Origin: a virus
IMG/VR virus record: IMGVR_UViG_3300021185_003607
Coordinates: 1 to 20,670 of that record
DNA length: 20,670 bases
Direction: 5' to 3' (one strand)
How positions within the stretch are numbered: the first letter of the stretch is position 1; every line of letters starts with the position of its first letter. The notes beneath the pieces were generated by a model. The model did not search any database and was not told the DNA's origin. It saw nothing but the letters and a program-made list of their open reading frames with translations. Below are positions 4,137 to 18,875 of the stretch, in pieces. The position numbers were made by a program, and so were the translations under genes.

Positions 4137-5869
4137 TTGATGGTTCAGGAATAAGTAATCCGTTTTTCTTTATTGGTATTGTTGAAAGCAATAACGATAA
4201 GACACACGAAGGTCGAGTGAGAGTTCGAGCCTTTGGCGTACACGGAACAAATAAAGAAATTGCTTCTACAGATTTACCTTGGGCTATTTGTGCTTCAGGT
4301 AATTACGATCCAAACAATCCACCTCCTCCATTAAATTCATATGTATATGGAATGTTCCTTGATGGAAGAATGGCTCAGCATCCTGTCATACTAGGATTAT
4401 TGCCTGGTATGTATAACACAGAATCAAATCCAACAAAAGATGGTGAAGGTGTTATCGCAGAAAAGAATGGTGAATTATTAGCAAGAGGTTATAATCCAAA
4501 TGATTTCAACGCGGGAGGCGGTCCTGATAGATTAGCTCGTGGTGAATTATTAAACGAAACATACTTATTACAACAAGCAGCCAATAGAGTACACGATCAA
4601 AAGATTGCTGATATGGATGAAACGTGGTCTGAACCACCACCGGCTTACGCAGCAAAATATCCATATAACAGAGTAATTAAAACAGGAAAGCATTCAATTG
4701 AAATAGATGATTCTCCTGGTGCAGAAAGAATTCAAATTACTCATGACTCAGGTGCATATATTCAAATAGATTCTAAAGGTACTGTTTCAGAAAGAGCTGA
4801 AGCAGATCGTTATGAAATTAATATTGGAACAAAACATGAATCATCAGGACATAGTGTAGTTACCATTAACGGTAATTCTCATGTTTATGTTAAAGGAAAT
4901 AAAACAGAAGAAGTAGAAGGTGATTATAAATTACTTGTACATGGTCATACGGAAATTGCTTCAGGTGCTTCGTTAAATTTAAATGGTAGTGATCAAACAA
5001 ATTTAAGAGGATCGGAAGTTAAGTTAGAAGCCAATGCAGGTATTATGACTCTGTTTGGTAAAAAAGAAATACAGTTTGAATCTGTTAACCAATTAAACTT
5101 CGTTGCCAAGAATATTAAAAATACAGCATTAAATACTTACGATGTATTCTCAACCAAAGCAATTAAGTTATCTACTCCAGGTGATATACATAACGCTGCT
5201 TCAAATATTATTAACCTAGCAAGTGGTTTAATACCTCCTACATTATTAACAGGAACATCAGTACCTACACCAGGATGGAGTTTAACGACGCCATCAATGA
5301 ATATTGCTTCAGTATTGACTTCTCATATTGGAATATTCAATGCGACTGCTCTTAATGCAGGTATAATTACTGCAAGCAGTGTTGTGAATACTCCATCGGT
5401 TATTGCTACTTCGGTCGCGGCAACAAGAGGTGACTTTACAACATTAGGTGCACCATTACCAGCAGGTCCTGTATCTTATAATGGAGCATACAGTGTACCA
5501 GTTGCTGCAGTTTCAATACCAAGTATACCTGTTTTATTACCTCCTGCTATTTCCGCACCTGTCGTTGCTCCTTTACCAGGCATTACTTCAGGTTGGGCAT
5601 ATCCTACAGGTAATAGTCCAGAATTTATTACGAAGGTACTTAATCCTGTTAATGCGTTCCTTGCTATTGTTGCTGACTTTGCACCACTAGGACTTGGAGC
5701 TTGGGGTATGAATCTAATTAAAATGCCAGAACCACCTAAGAAGTCAACTTCTATTGTTCCTCGTGGTTATTTTGCGATGGGTTATTCTGGTGGTTATATT
5801 TCAGCTCTCGATGATTCTGCTAAAGATCAAACGAAAAAGTTAACAAGAAGAGGTAGAAGAAATGTCTGA
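4133..5869 (+). CDS. 5: Baseplate hub spike, gp5/VgrG-like, without lysozyme domain
   Basis: The N-terminal OB-fold spans about residues 10-95 (FFFIGIVESNNDKTHEGRVR, VRAFGVHG, LPWAICASG, QHPVILGLLPG), as in T4 gp5. A VgrG-like segment follows at 180-217 (KTGKHSIEIDDSPGAERIQI, then THDSGAYIQID), leading into a beta-helix-like repetitive region to about 365. T4 gp5 carries a lysozyme between OB-fold and helix; here only about 80 residues of Asn/Gly- and charge-rich linker (97-175) are present, with no lysozyme signature. The C-terminal 210 residues are unusual: Val/Ala/Ile/Pro-rich and hydrophobic (for instance 455-483), then Gly/Tyr-rich, ending in a basic tail TKKLTRRGRRNV. It overlaps gp27 by four bases and the M15 gene by eight. 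Confidence 0.85.
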   Translation: MIDGSGISNPFFFIGIVESNNDKTHEGRVRVRAFGVHGTNKEIASTDLPWAICASGNYDPNNPPPPLNSYVYGMFLDGRMAQHPVILGLLPGMYNTESNPTKDGEGVIAEKNGELLARGYNPNDFNAGGGPDRLARGELLNETYLLQQAANRVHDQKIADMDETWSEPPPAYAAKYPYNRVIKTGKHSIEIDDSPGAERIQITHDSGAYIQIDSKGTVSERAEADRYEINIGTKHESSGHSVVTINGNSHVYVKGNKTEEVEGDYKLLVHGHTEIASGASLNLNGSDQTNLRGSEVKLEANAGIMTLFGKKEIQFESVNQLNFVAKNIKNTALNTYDVFSTKAIKLSTPGDIHNAASNIINLASGLIPPTLLTGTSVPTPGWSLTTPSMNIASVLTSHIGIFNATALNAGIITASSVVNTPSVIATSVAATRGDFTTLGAPLPAGPVSYNGAYSVPVAAVSIPSIPVLLPPAISAPVVAPLPGITSGWAYPTGNSPEFITKVLNPVNAFLAIVADFAPLGLGAWGMNLIKMPEPPKKSTSIVPRGYFAMGYSGGYISALDDSAKDQTKKLTRRGRRNV

Positions 5870-7418
5870 TCCATGCGTTGATCCTAATGATCAGATAACT
5901 CAGAATACCTTATCTATCGGTGCAAGACCTGTCACTGATGGTTTAGGAAGATATACTCTTGCGCAGATTGATGTTGTTACTTCAGAAATTGCGGAAAGTA
6001 TTGTAAGAGATGCAGAAAACAATCCACTCAGTAGAGCAGTAAACAAATACGGTAATGGGATATATGCGGCGACAAGTTATCTAAACGGCTTACTAAGACA
6101 ACAAATTGGTTCCCTTGATAATTACCCAGATCTATCAGATAGGTGGGAACGCGGTGATATATCAAACCTGGAGGTTGCTGATTTTATTCAAGCATATAAT
6201 TATACTCCTGCCAATTTATTAACTGATAATGATGCTCCTAAGTTAGCAAGAAACCTTGATGCATATTATAAGAATGATTTCAATACATCTATCTTAGGTG
6301 GCTTTTGTGATAAGTTTGATTCGTTCTTTGCTTCAGTAGATGCTTTCTTTGATTTAATTGGAGTGGTTGAAGGTATTATAGCCGATGCTTTAGAAATCGT
6401 TGGTAAGATTCAGAGAGGATATGATGGAATTAAAGATCTTACAGTTCAGCAATTAATTGATAATTTAATTAAATCCATTAAAGGAAGAATTACAGATGTC
6501 ATAGATCGAGTATTTAATGAAGTACAAGATATGATAGAAAACTTTGATCCTTCTGCGTTGACCGAAGAAGCTGAAACATTTGTAAATAAGAATGTTGTAA
6601 AAGGTATTATGACAACAAGAGAACAAATGTGCGCATTCTTTACAGAAGAGAACAAGAAAGGAATTAAGGATAAAGTAAAAGGTTTAATTGATTACGCAAT
6701 AGCCGCGTTTGAATCACCAGGTATTGAAGAGATTCAATATATCATTTCTCGTATCTGTGCACTTGCTGGAAGTATTGAAGCATTAATACGTGATATCAAT
6801 AAACCACTTGATGATTATACGAGAAGGTATGCCACAATCGTAGATCGTCTTAAAAATATTTCAAGAATTAACGAATCATCAGCAATACGAGCAGGTGGCA
6901 TCAGGTATTCTCCAACAACTAGGAAAGAGGTAATAAATAGATTACAAGGTAGATGGACTTCTCCTGGTGGTAACGAACAAACTGATACAGGTAATTTACC
7001 TAAAAATGTTAAACCAATTACTGCCAAGGATTATAAAGAGTTACCAAGATGCGGGCATGTATTTGCCGGGTCATCAGATGTATTTAAAGTTGAAGGTGAT
7101 TCGTTTGATGAAAAAGAAGGTATAGGTATATACGCATACACAAGAGTTGATCTTGATGTTAAAGTATATTTAAAAAGGTTACAAGAATCAACGAATAAAG
7201 AAAAGCCTTTAACAATAGTCGAAGGTTGGGTTAGCAAAGCTTACAATAAAGAAGCAGACGGCCCAGAAGATAATTCACATTTAAGTGGTTTGGTTGTAGA
7301 CATTAAGAAGGATATGGAAGATCCTGCTAAGTTTATCGAAAACGCTTTAAAGGGTGGATTTAAATACGTTAAAGAATATGACGATAAGATTCATTTAGAC
7401 ATAAGAGAAATACTATAA
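5862..7418 (+). CDS. Hub-associated protein with C-terminal M15-type (D,D-peptidase-like) domain
   Basis: Residues 1-350 are mostly helical and not recognised; 150-330 holds long amphipathic helices that could pack in the hub. Residues about 425-516 look like a zinc peptidase of the M15/hedgehog-DD-peptidase group: KPLTIVEGWVSKAYN corresponds to the family's vtSGyRs-ayN block, SHLSGLVVDI gives ligands His473 and Asp480 with Gly476, and KIHLDIRE supplies His511. GFKYVKEYDDKIHLDIR fits the closing block of the M15_3 subfamily. Such enzymes cut peptide stems of peptidoglycan. Because the adjacent gp5-like protein lacks a lysozyme domain, this is a candidate tail-borne peptidoglycan hydrolase used at entry. 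The start has AGAGG upstream and overlaps gp5 by eight bases; the stop overlaps gp25 by one base. Confidence 0.8.
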   Translation: MSDPCVDPNDQITQNTLSIGARPVTDGLGRYTLAQIDVVTSEIAESIVRDAENNPLSRAVNKYGNGIYAATSYLNGLLRQQIGSLDNYPDLSDRWERGDISNLEVADFIQAYNYTPANLLTDNDAPKLARNLDAYYKNDFNTSILGGFCDKFDSFFASVDAFFDLIGVVEGIIADALEIVGKIQRGYDGIKDLTVQQLIDNLIKSIKGRITDVIDRVFNEVQDMIENFDPSALTEEAETFVNKNVVKGIMTTREQMCAFFTEENKKGIKDKVKGLIDYAIAAFESPGIEEIQYIISRICALAGSIEALIRDINKPLDDYTRRYATIVDRLKNISRINESSAIRAGGIRYSPTTRKEVINRLQGRWTSPGGNEQTDTGNLPKNVKPITAKDYKELPRCGHVFAGSSDVFKVEGDSFDEKEGIGIYAYTRVDLDVKVYLKRLQESTNKEKPLTIVEGWVSKAYNKEADGPEDNSHLSGLVVDIKKDMEDPAKFIENALKGGFKYVKEYDDKIHLDIREIL

Positions 7419-9741: not shown

Positions 9742-12700
9742 ATGCCTCAGGGTGATTTAGAAAAAAATCTATCGCTATTCATTAAGAATCAGTTCCCCGC
9801 TATTTACAGGGAAGATGGACCTGAGCTTGTTCAATTAGTAGAAGATTATTATAAGTTCTCTGAAACGCAAGAGAACCAACATATCTATCAACAAAGAAGA
9901 TTATTCGAGACGAAAGATATTGATACAACATTAGAGAATATGATTATATTCTTTAAGAAAAAGTTTCTTGCTGATCTTCCACTTAAAGCTGATATCATTA
10001 AGTTTATTATTAAAAATATTCTTGATCTATATCGTTCAAAAGGTACCGCTCGAGGTATTGAATTATTCTTTGCCATATTCTATCAAGAGTTTGAGATTGA
10101 AATTGTATACCCTGCTGAAAAGATGCAAAAGGTTTCTGATTCCGAATGGAAGCAAGGTGTATATTTACAGATGTTTCCAAACAACGATTTCTTTACTTCG
10201 AAGTCAGGTAAGGAATATGCTTACAAAGATTTATTAGCAAGAAACATCGAAGGATCTGTAAGTGGTGCAAAGGCATCAGTAAGATCAATTAACTTCTTTA
10301 TTTTAAATGGTATTAAAACTCCTGTCATATATCTTGATGGTATTCAAGGTACATTTAAAAAGTATGAAGATATTTTATCTAACATAGAAGGAGAAGTAGT
10401 TAACTTTGGTAAAGCAAACGGATCTCTTTCAAAGTTTACCATTGTTGATAGATCAAGAGTCGGAGCAAAAAGAAAGAACTTGCCGGGTAGAGAAATTGGT
10501 GAAGTTCTTAATGTACATCAAAAAGATGGTAATGCAGGTAAAGCAATTGTCACTGGTGTAACAAGAGAAGCGTCAGGTCAAATTAAATATGATTTAGTTG
10601 ATGGCGGTTATGGTTACACAATTGATAATACAAGGTTATTAGTTTCCGACCAATCAATTATTTTAGACAACAGTGTAGACGGTTATAATTTAGGATTCAG
10701 AGTTGGAGAATTATTAGAAGACGGCAATGGTAACCAAGCAATGGTCATTGGACAAAACTTGGCTTCAGTCGGTGTTAGACATGCAAGTGGTACTGATGGC
10801 GGAACATTTACTCCAAACTCTACGGTCACAACAATAAGACCACCTATTGACGGTGTTGCACAAACACAACTTTCAATTAACTTGGCTCTTGTTCAGAATC
10901 AATTAGTACAACCTAATGCTTCATCTCCAGGACCATTATATCCTGACACAAATGATACAGGTGATGTTATTGTTTCTCAGTTAGGTGATACAACAATTGC
11001 TTCTATTATTACCGATGTTATAACTCCACATTTACCTACAGTAATAAGTGCACCTGATTATGAAGCTACGGCTCCTATGTCAGGATCTGCTTCTCCTGTT
11101 AGTTTAACGACACCGTTAGATCAAGCATTTGATATTCAAGATTTATCAATTGGAAGAATCGTATCGTTTGCTAATGATAACCCAGGTGCAGATTATCAAT
11201 CCGATGTATTTGCGATTGCTCAGGATTCATTAATTAAAAATGTAGATCGTAAGAATCAATCAATTCTATTTACTGATGCAGGTGACGCAGGATCATTCTC
11301 GGTTGGTGATAGAGTAAAAGGTTGGGATTCTGCTGTCGTTGGTATTGTAAAGTCAATTAACCAACAAGAAGGATTCGTTACAGTAACACCGTATGACATT
11401 GATGGATTTAATAGAGTCGAAAGAGTTTATTTAGAAAATTCACCAACGGCCCCATTTGATGTATTAAGTATTTCAAACGATTATGCTGGTACAGATAGAT
11501 TTGGTGACAATGCTATTATTGAGTCAGAAACAGAATTTGCCATTGGTAAGATTTCAGAAGTAAGTATATTAAACTCTGGGTTTGGTTATTGGGAATACGA
11601 AGTAGATCCAGATCAGATTATAGATTTTGCTGGTGGTCTTGGTGAATTAAGACAGGACGATGGAAAATTTGTTTCTCACGGTATTATCGAAGCAGAGAAT
11701 CAAGGTCAAACAAGTGGTTATTGGGCAGGTACCAATTCTCACTTAAGTGGTTGGAAACAAAATGGTGTAACAACAACCACAACAAATTTACCTCTAATGG
11801 ACTTTTCTTTAGTTGTTTTAAGACTTGCTTTAGGTCAAGATCCAATAACTCTATACCCTTGGCTTTCTCCTTCGTTTGAAAGTTGGTTCAATAGTACAGC
11901 AGAAGATGGATTTGCGATATATGATTTAAGTAAACAGGCACAACCAATTAATGCTGCAACTGCAACTTTCTTCCAACAATTATCAATGAAATCAGCTGCA
12001 GAAAATATTACAGCAAGATGGAACAATATTGTAGTTCCTTCAATGAAACAACAAGTTTGGTATGAATCACATGAAAATCTTTTATGGGTACTTAACGAAA
12101 CAATCAATGTATACGACCAAGAGTATTTAGATTCAGGACAAAGAATACAAGATAGTAATTTCTATCAAGAATATTCTTATCAAATTAAATCAAGCTTACC
12201 ACTACAGAATTATGAAAAGCTATTAAAAGAAAATGTTCACTTAGCAGGTTCTAAACTATTTGGAGACTTTATATTTAAGGCAAAGGTTGGTGGAACAATT
12301 AGACCAAGGTTCTTAAGACTATTTAATGATGATGGCAAAGGTTCTCCGTTTGATGTTGCGAATACAGTTAATCTTGCGGCGGACGTCACAAACTATACGG
12401 CTGATAGTGCTCTTGTATCGGCTGACCACGAACCTGGTGGAGAAGGTGGATTAACATTAAGTCCAACTGCAATACCTGATTTAACAATTACAAAGAATTG
12501 GTTCCAAGGATTCCATGATTATGCTGTAGGTATAAGTATGCCTGAAACAGGTACGGCTCCTTACCCAGTTGCTATTTTATTACATGGCAATGGTGGTACT
12601 GGTTCAGGTATGGTAAATCAATTCAAAGATTTATTGCCAGGACATATTGTTCTTAGCTTACAAGGATATGAAAACTCATGGAACATTTCTAACGAACAGT

Positions 12701-13293
12701 CTAAAGGACCTGATATTGAAGTGTTGGAGGAGTTTGTTGCGTTACTTCAAACTTATTCTAATGTTGATAGTACCAAGATTCGTATTGTAGGTGTATCAAA
12801 TGGTGGTGCACTTGCATTAAGGGCAGCGGTTGAGATTGATGATCCTGCGATTGATACTATTGTATGTATGATATCTCAAACAAATACAAGTCAATACAGA
12901 GATAGTTCATTCTGGTATCCTTTCACTGAATTATATACAGGTGATGATTATACAAATGATGGATATACAACGCCTAAGAATCCAATACCACAAAGAAGAA
13001 TTGTTCAAATGAATGGAAGAGCAGATCTTGTTGTTCCTTATGGTGGAGGAGAGGCTCTTGGAGTTGACTTCCTCTCTGCTCGAGATTCTGCTTATAGGTT
13101 TGCTCAGGCACAAGGATACACTGGAGTAGAAGGTGCAGTACAAAATGCCTACGGAGGTACAAGTAGAATATTTGATTATGGCAATGTAATATTCTTGCGT
13201 GAAGATGTTGCACATACTGTTAGTGATGATATGAAACATCTATTACAGATGTACCTCGAAAACAATTACGACATTGCGACACCTCCGTCATAA
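9742..13293 (+). CDS. Large baseplate wedge protein (gp7 position) fused to a C-terminal alpha/beta-hydrolase
   Basis: The N-terminus (residues 1-210) is a tail-protein module seen in T4-like marine phages: LEKNLSLFIKNQFPAIYRED, a helical region, and the motif YRSKGTARGIELFFAIFY around residue 98. It stands where gp7 stands in T4 (after gp6) and is of similar size without its C-terminus, so a gp7-like wedge role is inferred from context. Residues about 914-1178 form a separate esterase-like alpha/beta-hydrolase: the oxyanion loop LLHGNGGTGSG (His948-Gly949), nucleophile elbow GVSNGG with Ser1019, acid Asp1095 in GRADLVVPYGGG, and base His1158 in DVAHTVSDD. The triad is complete. The style recalls feruloyl-esterase/PHB-depolymerase-like enzymes; the substrate is unknown, perhaps an acylated surface glycan or lipid. 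A Gly-rich linker (about 899-905) joins the parts. There is a good ribosome site (AAGAGAG). Confidence 0.82.
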   Translation: MPQGDLEKNLSLFIKNQFPAIYREDGPELVQLVEDYYKFSETQENQHIYQQRRLFETKDIDTTLENMIIFFKKKFLADLPLKADIIKFIIKNILDLYRSKGTARGIELFFAIFYQEFEIEIVYPAEKMQKVSDSEWKQGVYLQMFPNNDFFTSKSGKEYAYKDLLARNIEGSVSGAKASVRSINFFILNGIKTPVIYLDGIQGTFKKYEDILSNIEGEVVNFGKANGSLSKFTIVDRSRVGAKRKNLPGREIGEVLNVHQKDGNAGKAIVTGVTREASGQIKYDLVDGGYGYTIDNTRLLVSDQSIILDNSVDGYNLGFRVGELLEDGNGNQAMVIGQNLASVGVRHASGTDGGTFTPNSTVTTIRPPIDGVAQTQLSINLALVQNQLVQPNASSPGPLYPDTNDTGDVIVSQLGDTTIASIITDVITPHLPTVISAPDYEATAPMSGSASPVSLTTPLDQAFDIQDLSIGRIVSFANDNPGADYQSDVFAIAQDSLIKNVDRKNQSILFTDAGDAGSFSVGDRVKGWDSAVVGIVKSINQQEGFVTVTPYDIDGFNRVERVYLENSPTAPFDVLSISNDYAGTDRFGDNAIIESETEFAIGKISEVSILNSGFGYWEYEVDPDQIIDFAGGLGELRQDDGKFVSHGIIEAENQGQTSGYWAGTNSHLSGWKQNGVTTTTTNLPLMDFSLVVLRLALGQDPITLYPWLSPSFESWFNSTAEDGFAIYDLSKQAQPINAATATFFQQLSMKSAAENITARWNNIVVPSMKQQVWYESHENLLWVLNETINVYDQEYLDSGQRIQDSNFYQEYSYQIKSSLPLQNYEKLLKENVHLAGSKLFGDFIFKAKVGGTIRPRFLRLFNDDGKGSPFDVANTVNLAADVTNYTADSALVSADHEPGGEGGLTLSPTAIPDLTITKNWFQGFHDYAVGISMPETGTAPYPVAILLHGNGGTGSGMVNQFKDLLPGHIVLSLQGYENSWNISNEQSKGPDIEVLEEFVALLQTYSNVDSTKIRIVGVSNGGALALRAAVEIDDPAIDTIVCMISQTNTSQYRDSSFWYPFTELYTGDDYTNDGYTTPKNPIPQRRIVQMNGRADLVVPYGGGEALGVDFLSARDSAYRFAQAQGYTGVEGAVQNAYGGTSRIFDYGNVIFLREDVAHTVSDDMKHLLQMYLENNYDIATPPS

Positions 13294-13337: not shown

Positions 13338-15125
13338 ATGTCTAAACAAATAATTAATATCGGTGCATCCGCTAACGACGGAACAGGTGATCCGTTACGT
13401 TCTGCATTCGATAAAGCAAACGATAACTTTAATGAGATTTACCTGGCGCTAGGAGATGCAAGTAATGCAACTGATCTATTCGACATTAATGGTAATTTAG
13501 ACCTATCAGGTAAACCGCATAAAATATCATTCTTATATGATACGAAACTTGAGCTCGATAATATTAATCCAGGTACTTATCATGGTTCTATAGGTCATGC
13601 ACATGATACCGGTTCATTATATTATGCTCATGGTGATTGGAGAAGACTTCTTGCTGATACTTCAGAAGGAGCAATTCTAAATTACACAGACCCATTAAAT
13701 GCTTGGGTATATAGTGTAAATCTTAGTAACTCTGAAACCGCAGGACACGTTTTAAGTACACAAGCAGATGGAACATATTCATGGGTTGCTCAATCAAGTG
13801 GTTCCGGTAGTTCATACAGTAATTCTGATGTTGATACTCATTTAAATCAAACTGACCCAGATGCAGGATATGTATTAAGTTGGAATGGAACTGATTACGC
13901 TTGGGTTGCTCAATCAGGTGGTTCCGGTAGTTCATACGGTGATACCGAGGTGTCTGCTCACTTAAATGTAAGTTCAGCCGGCTCAAATCAAATATTAAGT
14001 TGGGATGGTTCTGACTTTGCATGGGTTAACGATCAAACAGGTTCAGGCGGAAGTTCATTTGGAACAAGCGATGTTGATACTCACTTAAATATAAGTAGTG
14101 CTTCAAGTGGACAAATTCTATCTTGGAATGGAACTGATTACGCTTGGGTTGCAGATGCAACTGGTAGCGGAGGTGGTGGTTCAGTTGCTATGACTGACAT
14201 TACTAACACAACAATTACAAATCCACAATCTAATGATATTTTAAAATACTTCGGTAATGATGGGACTTGGAGAAACGTAACATTCACTCCAACTTATTCA
14301 GACATTAGTGAACAGCCTTCCAGTGTTTCAGATAAAGCTGCTTTTCATAATACTTTCCAAAATGCTGCTACAGTATTAAAGGTTACTCATAACGGTTCAT
14401 CCTCATATCGTTTTGACCAATATGGAACAACTGATAACCCAACGATTTATGTTAAAGCAGGAACAACAGTTGGATTTGATTTAACTGATGCGGGTGGTGC
14501 AGTTCACCCATTCGTAATTCAAACTGCGGGTGGTGCAGATTATAACGACGGTTTGGTTGCTTTAGATTCAGGAAACTATTACGAAGGCGCAAACGCAAAC
14601 GCAGGAATCGGTGGTGCCATGTTCTGGAAAATACCAGCAGGTATTTCTGGTAACTATAGGTACATATGTCAAGCACACGCAAGTATGGTTGGTACTATTG
14701 TTGTTGAAGCGGCTGCAGGCGGTGGCGGTGGTGGAGGCGGAAGTTTACCAAGTCGTACATCTCCTTCTCAGGCTACAGCATCAATTGCTGATGGAGTATC
14801 AACAGACCTTGATATTACTGGATTTAAAGGATACGCATTATATACGATTACAACATCAGCCGCGGCTTGGGTAACTCTTTACACTGATGCTAGTGCTCGT
14901 ACATCAGATAACTCAAGATCAGAAACAACAGATCCTGCACCGGATGCTGGTATTATTGCTGAGGTAATTACAACAGGAGCTGAAACGGTAAGATTATCAC
15001 CAGGAACTATTGGTTATAATTTAGAATCAACACCAACAACAAACATACCTGTTAAAGTAAGAAACAAAAGTGGTGGCACAACGGCCATTACAGTAGCTAT
15101 AGAAATACTTCAATTAGAGGCTTAA
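13338..15125 (+). CDS. Tail-fibre-like structural protein with embedded cupredoxin domain
   Basis: The N-terminus (INIGASANDGTGDPLRSAFD, then KANDNFNEIY) is the attachment module common in marine phage fibres. Residues about 139-285 hold near-identical 40-41-residue repeats (LSWNGTDYAWVA, GSGSSY, DVDTHLN). Residues about 345-457 resemble a cupredoxin: strands VLKVTHNG and PTIYVKAGTTVGFDL, His390 in VHPFVIQ, then YICQAHASMVGTIVV giving Cys444, His447 and Met450. C-x2-H-x2-M is the amicyanin-type copper loop, so all four type-1 copper ligands are present. An eight-glycine linker (461-468) leads to a C-terminal beta domain (about 469-595) of a kind frequent at marine phage fibre ends (DLDITGFKGYALYTI, AEVITTGAETVRLSPGTIGY). 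No signal peptide is present. A fibre or decoration protein of the baseplate is likely; copper binding is inferred from ligands only. Confidence 0.8.
   Translation: MSKQIINIGASANDGTGDPLRSAFDKANDNFNEIYLALGDASNATDLFDINGNLDLSGKPHKISFLYDTKLELDNINPGTYHGSIGHAHDTGSLYYAHGDWRRLLADTSEGAILNYTDPLNAWVYSVNLSNSETAGHVLSTQADGTYSWVAQSSGSGSSYSNSDVDTHLNQTDPDAGYVLSWNGTDYAWVAQSGGSGSSYGDTEVSAHLNVSSAGSNQILSWDGSDFAWVNDQTGSGGSSFGTSDVDTHLNISSASSGQILSWNGTDYAWVADATGSGGGGSVAMTDITNTTITNPQSNDILKYFGNDGTWRNVTFTPTYSDISEQPSSVSDKAAFHNTFQNAATVLKVTHNGSSSYRFDQYGTTDNPTIYVKAGTTVGFDLTDAGGAVHPFVIQTAGGADYNDGLVALDSGNYYEGANANAGIGGAMFWKIPAGISGNYRYICQAHASMVGTIVVEAAAGGGGGGGGSLPSRTSPSQATASIADGVSTDLDITGFKGYALYTITTSAAAWVTLYTDASARTSDNSRSETTDPAPDAGIIAEVITTGAETVRLSPGTIGYNLESTPTTNIPVKVRNKSGGTTAITVAIEILQLEA
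13752..14175 (+). repeat. In-gene tandem repeats of 120-123 bp in the fibre gene
   Basis: Units begin at about 13752, 13875, 13995 and 14118, spacings of 123, 120 and 123 bp, all in frame. Units 2 and 4 share a run of 29 identical bases starting TGGAATGGAACTGATTACGC at 13881 and 14124. The junction of units 1 and 2 repeats CAATCA(A/G)GTGGTTCCGG followed by TAGTTCATAC at about 13791 and 13911. Each unit encodes LSWNGTDYAWVA, a Gly/Ser linker, then DVDTHLN. The first unit has diverged at its start and the last is partial. Confidence 0.85.
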
Positions 15126-15129
15126 GATA

Positions 15130-16851
15130 ATGGAAGAATATATTGTCACTCTTCATAACAGAGAAGACTTAGACGATTTCTATAACGATATGGAAACGCC
15201 TGGTGGCGATCTTTATATTCCTGATAGAGCAGTTGATTTACAATTAAGAAGACAAATCAGTCGTAACACTCATTATATGTTAACACCTGAGGAAGTAATT
15301 GAATTAGAAAAAGATCCTCGAGTAATGAGTATAGAATCAAAAGCATTAATTGATTCTATAGAATGGAAAGCGAGTGGATATTCTGAATCCGGTAATTGGA
15401 AAAGAAATAATGGCGTTGCTGTCACAGGGGATAAAAATTGGGGAATACTACGACACACTATTGGTGCCAATGCAGAAAGTGGCACGTGGGGAGATGAAGC
15501 ATTATCTGGAAGTACCAACATTTCATCTGCAACTGTTAATATAACTGCTTCAGGAAAAAATGTTGATGTATTAATCGTTGATGGAGCAATCACAACAACT
15601 GCCATGGGCCACCCAGAGCTTGCCGTCAATGCTGATGGGACAGGAGGAAGTAGAGTTGTGCCGTTTAATTGGTTCTCTCTAACAAATCAATTAGGTTATG
15701 GCGCTAATGGTACCTATGATTATAATACAATGGGCGTAGAAAGTGATACTAATCATGGTGTTCATGTGGCAGGAACCGTAGCAGGAAATACTTTAGGTTG
15801 GGCAAGAGAAGCAAATATTTACAGTTTAGAATTTTATTATACTGGTGCAGTCAATCAGGTTGTGAATAGTTCACCTCTTGTACCATCTACATTATGGGAT
15901 TATATTCGCGAATGGCATAATACTAAACCAATTAACCCAGCCACAGGAAGAAGAAATCCTACAGTAAGTAATCATAGTTATAATGGATCTGTTAGTAGAG
16001 ATAGTCGAATTACCAATGGGATTTATAATGGAGTTGGTATAGTTAGATATAGAGGAGTAACGTACGATAAGTATGGTGATCAAGGATCTGATTTAACTGA
16101 TTCTGAATTAGAAGCAAGAGGTATATATGTACCGCCTGGTGGTAATTGGACTCTCGGCTATAATTCAAATTCAATTAACGCAGATATTACTGATGCAATA
16201 GCCGACGGTATTATTGTAGTAACTTCCGCAGGAAATCATTCTCAAAAAGAAACGAATAATACTGGTAATCAAGACTATGAAAATTATTTGTACCTTAGGA
16301 TAGGATCTAATACATATGCTTCAATTATTCCGAGTAACAGAACAGCTGGTATATCCCTCAATGAACCTACTATAAATGTTGGCACACTTGATGGTTATAA
16401 AGATGACCGTAAAGGATATTGGTCAGTTTGTGGTGATGGAGTTGATATTCATGCAGCCGGAAGGCAAATAATGAGTTCACAATTAACATCTACTGGTGCC
16501 ACCGTAAGTGATTCTAGAAATAGTTCGTTTTATCTTACTAAGAAGAGTGGAACAAGCATGTCTTCCCCACAAGTTACTGGTGTGGTTGCATTACTTATGG
16601 AAAGTAATCCTGGCCTAAATCAAGCGCAAGTCAATGAATGGTTAGAGGCAAATGCAACTAAAGATTTAATGTATGATACAGGAACTGATAGTAGTACTGA
16701 TCTTGTAAGTTTACAAGGTGCACCAAATAGAATATTAAGATGGATTAACCAAAGACCAGAATCTGGTGCGAGTTTTCCAAAAGTAAATGCAAAAGCAAGA
16801 CCTACAAGTGGTAGCGTATATCCACGACCAAGATTAAGAAAGAGAGGTTAG
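15130..16851 (+). CDS. Subtilisin-like serine protease (peptidase S8) in the baseplate cluster
   Basis: The 573-aa protein has a full S8 catalytic set: Asp151 in DVLIVDGAI, His209 in NHGVHVAGTVAG, oxyanion Asn369 in VVTSAGNHS, and Ser476 in GTSMSSPQVTG; the block CGDGVDIHAAG precedes the serine region. Residues 1-80 (EEYIVTLHNREDLDDFY, then YMLTPEEVIELEKDPRVMSI) look like an inhibitor_I9-type prodomain or a small virion-attachment module. There is no signal peptide or membrane segment, so it stays in the infected cell or is built into the virion. The C-terminal 50 residues are basic (KARPTSGSVYPRPRLRKRG). AGAGG precedes its ATG, four bases after the fibre stop, implying co-transcription from the promoter at 13302. 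It may mature the fibre or other tail proteins, or degrade host surface protein; the sequence does not decide between these. Confidence 0.9.
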   Translation: MEEYIVTLHNREDLDDFYNDMETPGGDLYIPDRAVDLQLRRQISRNTHYMLTPEEVIELEKDPRVMSIESKALIDSIEWKASGYSESGNWKRNNGVAVTGDKNWGILRHTIGANAESGTWGDEALSGSTNISSATVNITASGKNVDVLIVDGAITTTAMGHPELAVNADGTGGSRVVPFNWFSLTNQLGYGANGTYDYNTMGVESDTNHGVHVAGTVAGNTLGWAREANIYSLEFYYTGAVNQVVNSSPLVPSTLWDYIREWHNTKPINPATGRRNPTVSNHSYNGSVSRDSRITNGIYNGVGIVRYRGVTYDKYGDQGSDLTDSELEARGIYVPPGGNWTLGYNSNSINADITDAIADGIIVVTSAGNHSQKETNNTGNQDYENYLYLRIGSNTYASIIPSNRTAGISLNEPTINVGTLDGYKDDRKGYWSVCGDGVDIHAAGRQIMSSQLTSTGATVSDSRNSSFYLTKKSGTSMSSPQVTGVVALLMESNPGLNQAQVNEWLEANATKDLMYDTGTDSSTDLVSLQGAPNRILRWINQRPESGASFPKVNAKARPTSGSVYPRPRLRKRG

Positions 16852-16895: not shown

Positions 16896-18875
16896 ATGCC
16901 TGAAATTTTAACAAACAATTTTAATCAAGACATTAATAAGTTATTCATAGCTGATGCAAAGGCTAACGATGACTATTATATGTTTGTTTCCAGCATTGGC
17001 GGTATTGAGCCAGTTGATTCTGCTACTTCTCAAAATGAGTTTTTAGAAAAGACTCTATTTGCCAAAAAGATAAAGAACGATGATATTAACTTTATGATAA
17101 AGTATTATCCTTGGCAAAGAGGAACCGTATACGCTGAATACGATGATAGTATTGATTTAGACGGTCTTAAGTTTTACGCGGTCGTTGGTCCTAACGATAA
17201 TGATACCGATGATTATAGAATTTATAAATGCCTTAATAATAACGAAGGCGTAGGTTCAGAATCTCCACCAACATTTGATGCAGCTAACGTAAATCAAGTT
17301 TATGAAACTGCCGATGGTTATGTGTGGAAGTATATGTATCGTCTCACTACATTACAATTCGAAGGTTATAATGCTTTAGGTTATATACCAATTGATCCTG
17401 AAACAACCATTGAACCAGCTGAGGTTTACGGCGGTGGTATTTCAGAGATTCAAGTAACTAATGCAATTGTGAATAATGGATACGAAGAAAAGAATGGACT
17501 TATTAATAGAAACCTTGGTAGAGTAGGTAGTCCTTTAACTCACGGTGATGTTTTATTAGAAATAGATCCTAGAGAACAAGATTGGAATGAAACCGATAAT
17601 TATTATGTAGGTCAATATCTTTATGCTACAAACCCAAGTTCAAGTGTTACCAACTTATTTGTAATTAAATCATATGAATTACAAACAGGTTCAGGTTTAG
17701 CAAGAATTGTTGTAGGTGGAGAATTAGCAGATCCTAGACGTGGTGTTATTGAAAATGCAACAGCAGCTGCACCAGTTGCTATTACATCAACTGACCACAA
17801 CTTAGTTAACGGACAACCAATTACTTTTAGAAATGTTCAAGGTATGGTTGAATTAAATCTTAATGAATTGTCATCTGATACAGTAGCAGCTACAACATTT
17901 TATGTTTCAGTAATTGATGCCGATACATTCTCATTAAAAGCTGATCCTTTATTGGTTACTGATTTAGATGGAAGTGGATTTACTAATTATGATTCAGGCG
18001 GTACCTGGGAAGCATTAACTGATTGGGAAATTTCTACTTCAGTCGTAAACGCAAATATTAAAATATTCCCAAGAGTTATTATTCAAGGTGACGGAGTAGG
18101 AGCAGTTGCAGTTCCTGAGATTGATTCCGGTGGAATTAATAAAGTCATATTGTTAAATAAAGGTTCAGGATATAATAATGCAATTGCATCAGTCGTTGAT
18201 CCTATCATTGACTTTAATCCAGGTGGAACAGAATCAGCAGACGTAAGAGCAACAATTAAACCTATTATTGAACCAAAAGGTGGACACGGTTATAACTTGC
18301 TTGACGAATTTAGATGTAAACATTTTTCAATGTATGCTTATATTACAGCAGAAGATAATACAAAGATCGGTGATAAGAATACATACGGATGTATTGGTAT
18401 TGTAAGAACTCCTCAATTTAAAAGTATGGTAGATGTAAATACATGGAGAAGTGGACAAGCAAACACTGCCTCTGAGCCTGACATATTCGATAATAGAATC
18501 GCAATTGTCACTGATGATTATGCAAGATTAAATGCAAATAGTACAATCACACAAGTTGATGTAAACAACGATGTTATATTCCAAGCTCAAGTACATGAGA
18601 TCGACGAAGCTTCGAATACAGTTTATTTGGCTGAATATATAGGTCCATATAAGAATAATGCACTTGTTGGTAATGGAGATACATCATTTAACCCAAATCT
18701 AGCAATTACATCAAATACTGGTCAGAGAATAACAATAAATAATCCTATAGCAGATAATGTTGTGTATTCAGATTATAAACAAAGAACAGGCGAAGTATAC
18801 TTCATGGAGGAATTCTTCCCATTAGCAAGAAACGACCTCTCAAGAGAAGAATTTAAATTTGTACTGGAATTTTAA
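16896..18875 (+). CDS. 8: Baseplate wedge protein gp8, enlarged form
   Basis: gp8 is a wedge subunit that binds gp7 and gp10 in T4. The signature is present in the first 170 residues: PEILTNNFNQDINKLFIAD, YRIYKCLNNN (107-116), and TADGYVWKYMYRL (138-150), the usual gp8 blocks. At 659 aa it is about twice T4 gp8 (334 aa). One visible insertion at about 289-374 (APVAITSTDHNLVNGQPITF to YDSGGTWEA) resembles the E1-FCCH-like beta module found in many phage structural proteins. Later blocks include NKGSGYNNAIASVVDP and a C-terminal EVYFMEEFFPLARNDLSREE. In T4, gene 8 directly follows gene 7; here the fibre and protease genes stand between them. Confidence 0.85.
   Translation: MPEILTNNFNQDINKLFIADAKANDDYYMFVSSIGGIEPVDSATSQNEFLEKTLFAKKIKNDDINFMIKYYPWQRGTVYAEYDDSIDLDGLKFYAVVGPNDNDTDDYRIYKCLNNNEGVGSESPPTFDAANVNQVYETADGYVWKYMYRLTTLQFEGYNALGYIPIDPETTIEPAEVYGGGISEIQVTNAIVNNGYEEKNGLINRNLGRVGSPLTHGDVLLEIDPREQDWNETDNYYVGQYLYATNPSSSVTNLFVIKSYELQTGSGLARIVVGGELADPRRGVIENATAAAPVAITSTDHNLVNGQPITFRNVQGMVELNLNELSSDTVAATTFYVSVIDADTFSLKADPLLVTDLDGSGFTNYDSGGTWEALTDWEISTSVVNANIKIFPRVIIQGDGVGAVAVPEIDSGGINKVILLNKGSGYNNAIASVVDPIIDFNPGGTESADVRATIKPIIEPKGGHGYNLLDEFRCKHFSMYAYITAEDNTKIGDKNTYGCIGIVRTPQFKSMVDVNTWRSGQANTASEPDIFDNRIAIVTDDYARLNANSTITQVDVNNDVIFQAQVHEIDEASNTVYLAEYIGPYKNNALVGNGDTSFNPNLAITSNTGQRITINNPIADNVVYSDYKQRTGEVYFMEEFFPLARNDLSREEFKFVLEF

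Follow-up and report, generated by a model that had tools for sequence, protein, structure and literature searches.

A putative type-1-copper-like cupredoxin domain in a baseplate-wedge/tail-fibre connector of marine T4-like phages

Results and Discussion

A stretch of viral DNA of 20,670 nucleotides (positions 1 to 20,670 of IMG/VR record IMGVR_UViG_3300021185_003607, referred to here as the window) encodes a 595-residue structural protein, and we consider it likely that residues 345–457 of this protein are a genuine cupredoxin (type-1-copper-like) domain with a metal site. This judgement concerns the identity of the domain and not its role, and metal binding remains undemonstrated. Most likely, the domain is a module that is exposed on the outside and has moved among the fibre proteins near the baseplate in marine T4-like phages. 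The features on which the analysis is based are collected in Table 1.

Table 1. Positions in the window of the connector protein, its predicted parts, and neighbouring genes.
Feature	Position	Strand	Basis
gp9/gp10-like baseplate-wedge/tail-fibre connector, 595 aa, carrying the cupredoxin domain	13338..15125	+	PF07880, phrog_677, position relative to gp8
gp9/gp10-type N-terminal anchor, aa 3-42	13344..13463	+	PF07880 E 1.8e-6
Repeat shaft, three ~40-aa repeats S[YF]xxxxV[DS][TA]HLN...LSWNGxDYAWV, starting at aa 159, 199, 240	13812..14093	+	
Cupredoxin domain, aa 345-457	14370..14708	+	AlphaFold2, Foldseek, NCBIfam models
His390, first predicted copper ligand (AVHPF)	14505..14507	+	
Ligand loop Cys444-x2-His447-x2-Met450 (CQAHASM)	14667..14687	+	
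C-terminal beta-sandwich tip, aa 469-595, separate module	14742..15122	+	AlphaFold2 pLDDT 88.7
Subtilase-like protein adjoining the 595-aa ORF, between the gp9-like and gp8-like genes	15130..16851	+	PF00082 E 1.5e-17
gp8-like gene, two genes on from the 595-aa ORF	16896-18875		phrog_438

The carrier is a gp9/gp10-like connector

The window holds a T4-like baseplate gene cluster with tail tube cap, gp53-like wedge, hub, gp25-like, gp6-like, and gp8-like genes. An earlier note, made from the DNA sequence alone, had called the product of the ORF at 13338–15125, whose codon 345 lies at position 14370, a fibre protein. Judged by profile matches and gene position, the product is more precisely a gp9/gp10-like baseplate-wedge/tail-fibre connector. 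Its N-terminal segment matches PF07880 above the cut-off (28.6 bits vs 25), and the anchor motif is also present in cyanophage gp9, e.g., MAKQSLGLGASANDNTGDTLR. The family phrog_677, “baseplate wedge tail fiber protein connector”, matches residues 1–458 (E 1.2e-36), and the C-terminal part of that family is the same cupredoxin domain (E 8.7e-24). The order gp9, one gene, gp8 is common to the window and to phages S-SSM5, S-RIM8, and P-TIM40. Cyanophage gp9 (PHROG 677, T4-GC 398) is like the window protein in its N-terminal anchor, its cupredoxin with a His/Cys/His/Met (HCHM) ligand set, and its place upstream of gp8. In most of these proteins, however, the cupredoxin closes the chain, whereas the window protein adds a Gly-rich linker and a 127-residue beta domain, and its shaft repeats differ. 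The location of the cupredoxin between a repeat shaft and a C-terminal beta tip, claimed previously, was borne out by the three repeats that precede it and the linker and confidently modelled tip that follow. The tip is common to other Synechococcus-phage fibre proteins (identity to the S-CREM1 tail protein is no higher than 58%), and a fold search with it returned generic viral beta-sandwiches only, the HFTV1 turret being the best (E 7e-4).

The domain is predicted to fold as a cupredoxin

An AlphaFold2 model of the domain, 125 residues long and built with an alignment of 28 relatives, was a confident all-beta sandwich with about ten strands (pLDDT 91.3, pTM 0.84), as against the eight or so of the Greek-key cupredoxin fold. 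In the numbering of the model, H56 is located just before strand 58–62, C110 ends strand 104–110, and M116 is located just before the last strand, 117–123. The ligands are thereby placed as in cupredoxins, with His390 before a strand, Cys444 at the end of the penultimate strand, and Met450 before the last one. In a Foldseek search of the PDB, all 50 matches listed were cupredoxin or multicopper proteins. The best match among those listed was rusticyanin (E 2.1e-5), and the others included three-domain nitrite reductase, amicyanin, plastocyanin, pseudoazurin, laccases, and nitrous oxide reductase. TM-scores to PDB cupredoxins were only about 0.35–0.58; such modest values are as expected of a divergent member of the fold. 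The earlier note had held that a predicted fold other than a cupredoxin sandwich would refute its proposal, and this outcome was not encountered.

The profile search that it had proposed gave a mixed answer. The domain missed the Pfam gathering scores of both PF00127 (18.1 vs 21.2 bits) and PF13473 (15.8 vs 27 bits), and PF00127 responded in 19 of the 28 relatives. NCBIfam models of copper proteins responded below their cut-offs: rusticyanin (TIGR03095, E 8e-5) and halocyanin (TIGR03102, E 1.9e-4), in both cases far below, amicyanin (TIGR02657, 18.5 vs 110.2 bits), and plastocyanin (TIGR02656, 16.1 vs 87.85 bits). The window domain shares the fold and the ligand order with all four. These are small exported proteins, whereas the window domain is part of a large virion protein and has a His-Pro sequence at the first ligand. 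Since the domain lies below the Pfam gathering cut-off, the cupredoxin assignment rests on convergent evidence and not on one curated match. The fold of residues 345–457 is supported in several ways, yet the domain is within no named cellular cupredoxin family. Scanning of 84,980 species with peptide seeds, a weak method that needs short exact stretches, revealed no cellular relatives.

The missed Pfam cut-off could also be taken to mean that the ligand motif arose by chance in a generic fibre beta-domain that is not a cupredoxin. This interpretation is barely credible. The pattern H-x(35–75)-C-x2-H-x2-M arose in only 20 of 200,000 shuffles of the 113-residue domain (~1e-4 per shuffle), and the fold prediction and fold search, the responses of four copper-protein HMMs, and the conservation described below are likewise against it. 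It is refuted in the main by the Foldseek matches together with ligand conservation.

The four ligands are kept or lost as a set

The positions given earlier for His390, Cys444, His447, and Met450 proved exact when checked against the ORF translation. Cys444 is the sole cysteine among 595 residues, and across the six frames of the window the H-x(35–75)-C-x2-H-x2-M pattern occurs at one site only, in the cupredoxin domain. The C-x2-H-x2-M spacing is that of amicyanin in an alignment of PDB sequences, whereas the plastocyanin loop, C-x2-H-x4-M, has two extra residues in the plastocyanin alignment. The description of the site as “amicyanin-type” can be retained for the loop spacing but not as a family assignment, the cut-off of the amicyanin model being missed. 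His390 is directly followed by Pro and not by Asn, which is usual after the first ligand His in plastocyanin, azurin, and amicyanin; HPF is also found at the type-1 His in laccases.

Conservation was evaluated in 102 distinct near-full-length domains from viral contigs and annotated phages. The His/Cys/His/Met set was intact in 84/85 domains at <90% identity and in 28/29 at <60% identity, where the median pairwise identity is 28%. The ligand columns are among the most conserved in the alignment, with the axial Met as invariant as the other ligands. The sole exception has N/S/T/L, with all four ligands gone. This sequence is a second, degenerate cupredoxin copy, residues 156–270 of a 946-residue ORF in locus L048, and the same protein carries an intact copy. 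A search with a profile in which the four ligand columns were masked was used to exclude motif-driven selection. The complete set was found in 84 of 88 domains, the other four having lost the set or being truncated or misaligned at the C-terminus, and no domain among these 88 kept one to three ligands when aligned in full. Ascertainment bias as the source of ligand conservation can be dismissed, the result being unchanged by masking. At the ligand positions, synonymous codons are used interchangeably (CAT 65/CAC 48 at the first His, TGT 88/TGC 22 at Cys, and a further CAC/CAT alternation of 59/51), which indicates that the constraint acts on the amino acid.

All-or-none loss of ligands is expected of a working metal site and not of a vestigial scaffold. 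The earlier note had argued that retention of four ligands speaks against a degenerate scaffold and had named free substitution of the set among homologues as an observation that would refute its proposal; the argument gains strength from these data, and free substitution was not seen. A host-captured cupredoxin might nevertheless have been kept merely as an Ig-like adhesion scaffold with a vestigial metal site. The divergence of the sequence and the shuffling of the domain between fibre proteins are compatible with such an origin, and phage fibres often carry Ig-like beta-sandwich modules. We find it very improbable: ligands would be expected to disappear one at a time from a vestigial site, whereas at identities as low as ~28% the set is either whole or missing altogether. 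We consider it likely that the metal site is functional in the virion, although no metal-binding data or ligand distances are available. From the His2-Cys-Met set, copper is inferred to be the most likely metal.

The domain is widespread and mobile

The earlier note mentioned similar motifs in other marine phage structural proteins. This was correct, and the case is far stronger than it suggested: with the S-SSM5 domain as a query, 349 of 50,697 phage records matched, and 341 of the 349 are cyanophages by name. Nearly all the matching records belong to marine cyanophages, where the protein bears the annotation “baseplate wedge tail fiber connector”; the domain also occurs in many uncultured phages. 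Laboratory cyanophages with the domain include Syn9, S-SSM5, and P-SSM7. About 459 cyanophage records respond to a gp8 query. A comparison of these counts, not made record by record, suggests that a cupredoxin copy is detectable in roughly three quarters or more of the cyanophage records.

The domain also occurs outside the connector. In proteins of the phrog_9158 type (T4-GC 519, peptidase S8), the same module, with the same ligands, is fused to the C-terminus of a subtilase, whereas in the window it is on a gp9-like anchor. The window subtilase aligns to phrog_9158 positions 7–573, the cupredoxin matches positions 593–695, and the window subtilase ends without a cupredoxin, just before the point where that of its relatives lies. 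Subtilase relatives of 809 residues, encoded next to the gp9-like gene, have the cupredoxin at or near the C-terminus. The domain is thus found both internally and at the C-termini of its carriers, and its presence in the gp9-like connector as well as in subtilases and fibre proteins encoded nearby points to a mobile module. A longer-loop version with intact ligands and an insert between the first His and Cys (...NxHPLNFS...YYWCxNHxxMGN) was observed in other fibre-type proteins, several per genome and in the same phages (loci L062, L055, L067, L060, L116, and L167, and cyanophage loci L175, L176, L184, and L185).

In the lake phage DSL-LC01 (L173), an Actinomycetia phage, an HCHM cupredoxin is encoded by a hypothetical gene (5041–6411) that has collagen-like fibre genes as neighbours and a tryptophan halogenase gene downstream. 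The photosystem gene psbA was absent from 12 large window-related contigs and present in two cyanophage controls, which is weak evidence, as the contigs are fragments. The window gp6 is nearest to that of Sinorhizobium and Caulobacter T4-like phages, and this sequence affinity points to a non-cyanobacterial T4-like lineage. These three observations disfavour a cyanobacteria-specific photosynthetic role, and the domain is seemingly not tied to photosynthetic hosts. A plastocyanin-type auxiliary metabolic gene was also rejected: the domain sits inside a structural gene, while phage petE is a separate small gene (T4-GC 225; PMC3037559).

Possible roles of the metal site

The same ligand set is shared by cyanobacterial phages, an actinomycete phage, and psbA-free contigs; this host independence would fit a purely structural function in which copper or zinc on four ligands staples an exposed beta-sandwich, without a role in host contact or redox chemistry. 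The use of the domain at both internal and C-terminal sites, like a building block, agrees with this. Such a function is possible, but two observations count against it. The axial Met varies no more than the other ligands do, and a structural Zn site would not need Met; and the ligand-less copy in L048 implies that the fold does not need metal. Ligand-free cupredoxin folds are known, in ephrins and early-nodulin-like proteins.

A complete type-1 set with an axial Met, on a short amicyanin-like loop, is a natural electron-transfer site. Conceivably, it exchanges electrons with a partner in the host envelope, or its reduction upon contact triggers a change in the baseplate. We regard both possibilities as unlikely: no partner gene or redox partner is seen next to the domain, a specific host partner is improbable when phages of unrelated hosts carry the domain, and the domain is covalently part of a fibre, which keeps it away from membranes.

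By inference and tentatively, we favour a role in which the metal pole mediates adhesion or contact with the host. The two termini of a cupredoxin emerge at the end away from the copper, and a tethered domain would therefore be expected to present the copper pole outward. The domain would fold as an apo-protein in the host cytoplasm, because the site of a cupredoxin takes shape even in the absence of metal. Uptake of copper, or of another soft metal, would come after lysis or at the host envelope, because assembly is cytoplasmic; the resulting lack of copper at synthesis was counted against the copper-site reading. The metal-stabilised surface module would then contact the host envelope, a role that no experiment supports. 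Our inferred order of roles is metal-stabilised host contact, then a purely structural staple, then redox chemistry. In its most general form, the proposal is that marine T4-like phages, most cyanomyoviruses included, bear functional type-1 copper centres on the exterior of their baseplate fibres as a cofactor of host contact; this remains a conjecture.

Relation to known systems

Cupredoxins are familiar as electron carriers, either secreted or in the periplasm, and as domains of oxidases. In 5.4 million open papers (subscription papers and preprints were outside the scope), we found no description of a cupredoxin, plastocyanin, or type-1 copper in a phage baseplate or tail. Automatic domain databases may list the domain under the cupredoxin superfamily, and every occurrence of the combination in the phage records searched goes by a name such as “baseplate wedge tail fiber connector”. 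Each of the two, fold and carrier family, is known, and their combination appears to be undescribed. The domain has thus been sequenced hundreds of times and gone unremarked, as far as the searched literature shows. In this setting a cupredoxin fold, with strict selection acting on its metal site, is a component of the apparatus by which some of the commonest ocean phages attach. It is probable that these very common viruses bear a copper site on the particle exterior, copper binding being inferred.

The nearest idea in print is that of HxH iron sites in T4 gp37 and in the fibre of alterophage R22Y, the basis of the “Ferrojan horse” hypothesis (PMC11705849). It likewise concerns a metal site in tail fibres with a proposed link to marine metal chemistry; the site and the fold are different, octahedral His in the iron fibres as opposed to a soft-ligand Cys/His/Met cupredoxin site in a globular domain. 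If virions do hold copper, phage adsorption would be linked to trace-metal chemistry, the cupredoxin would be the equivalent, for copper, of the tail fibre that bears iron, and phages would constitute a pool of copper ligands in seawater.

Other features of the locus

The 595-residue protein also contains a His-x-His motif (H87 and H89 in GHAHD, residues 86–90, window 13593–13607), the type of motif proposed for iron binding in other fibre proteins; its conservation in this protein is untested. A 1183-residue baseplate-wedge protein (ORF 9742–13293) matches phrog_17744 at its N-terminus, and its C-terminus (residues ~905–1175, window 12454–13266) resembles alpha/beta-hydrolases and esterases, as judged by matches to phrog_2576 (E 3.6e-60) and PF20434 (E 0.0039) and by a GVSNGG nucleophile motif. 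A surface-polysaccharide esterase fused to a wedge protein is possible. Finally, a 518-residue protein (window 5862–7418) has a peptidase-like match (phrog_25247 “peptidase”, E 7.5e-11) and is possibly a cell-wall-degrading hub component.
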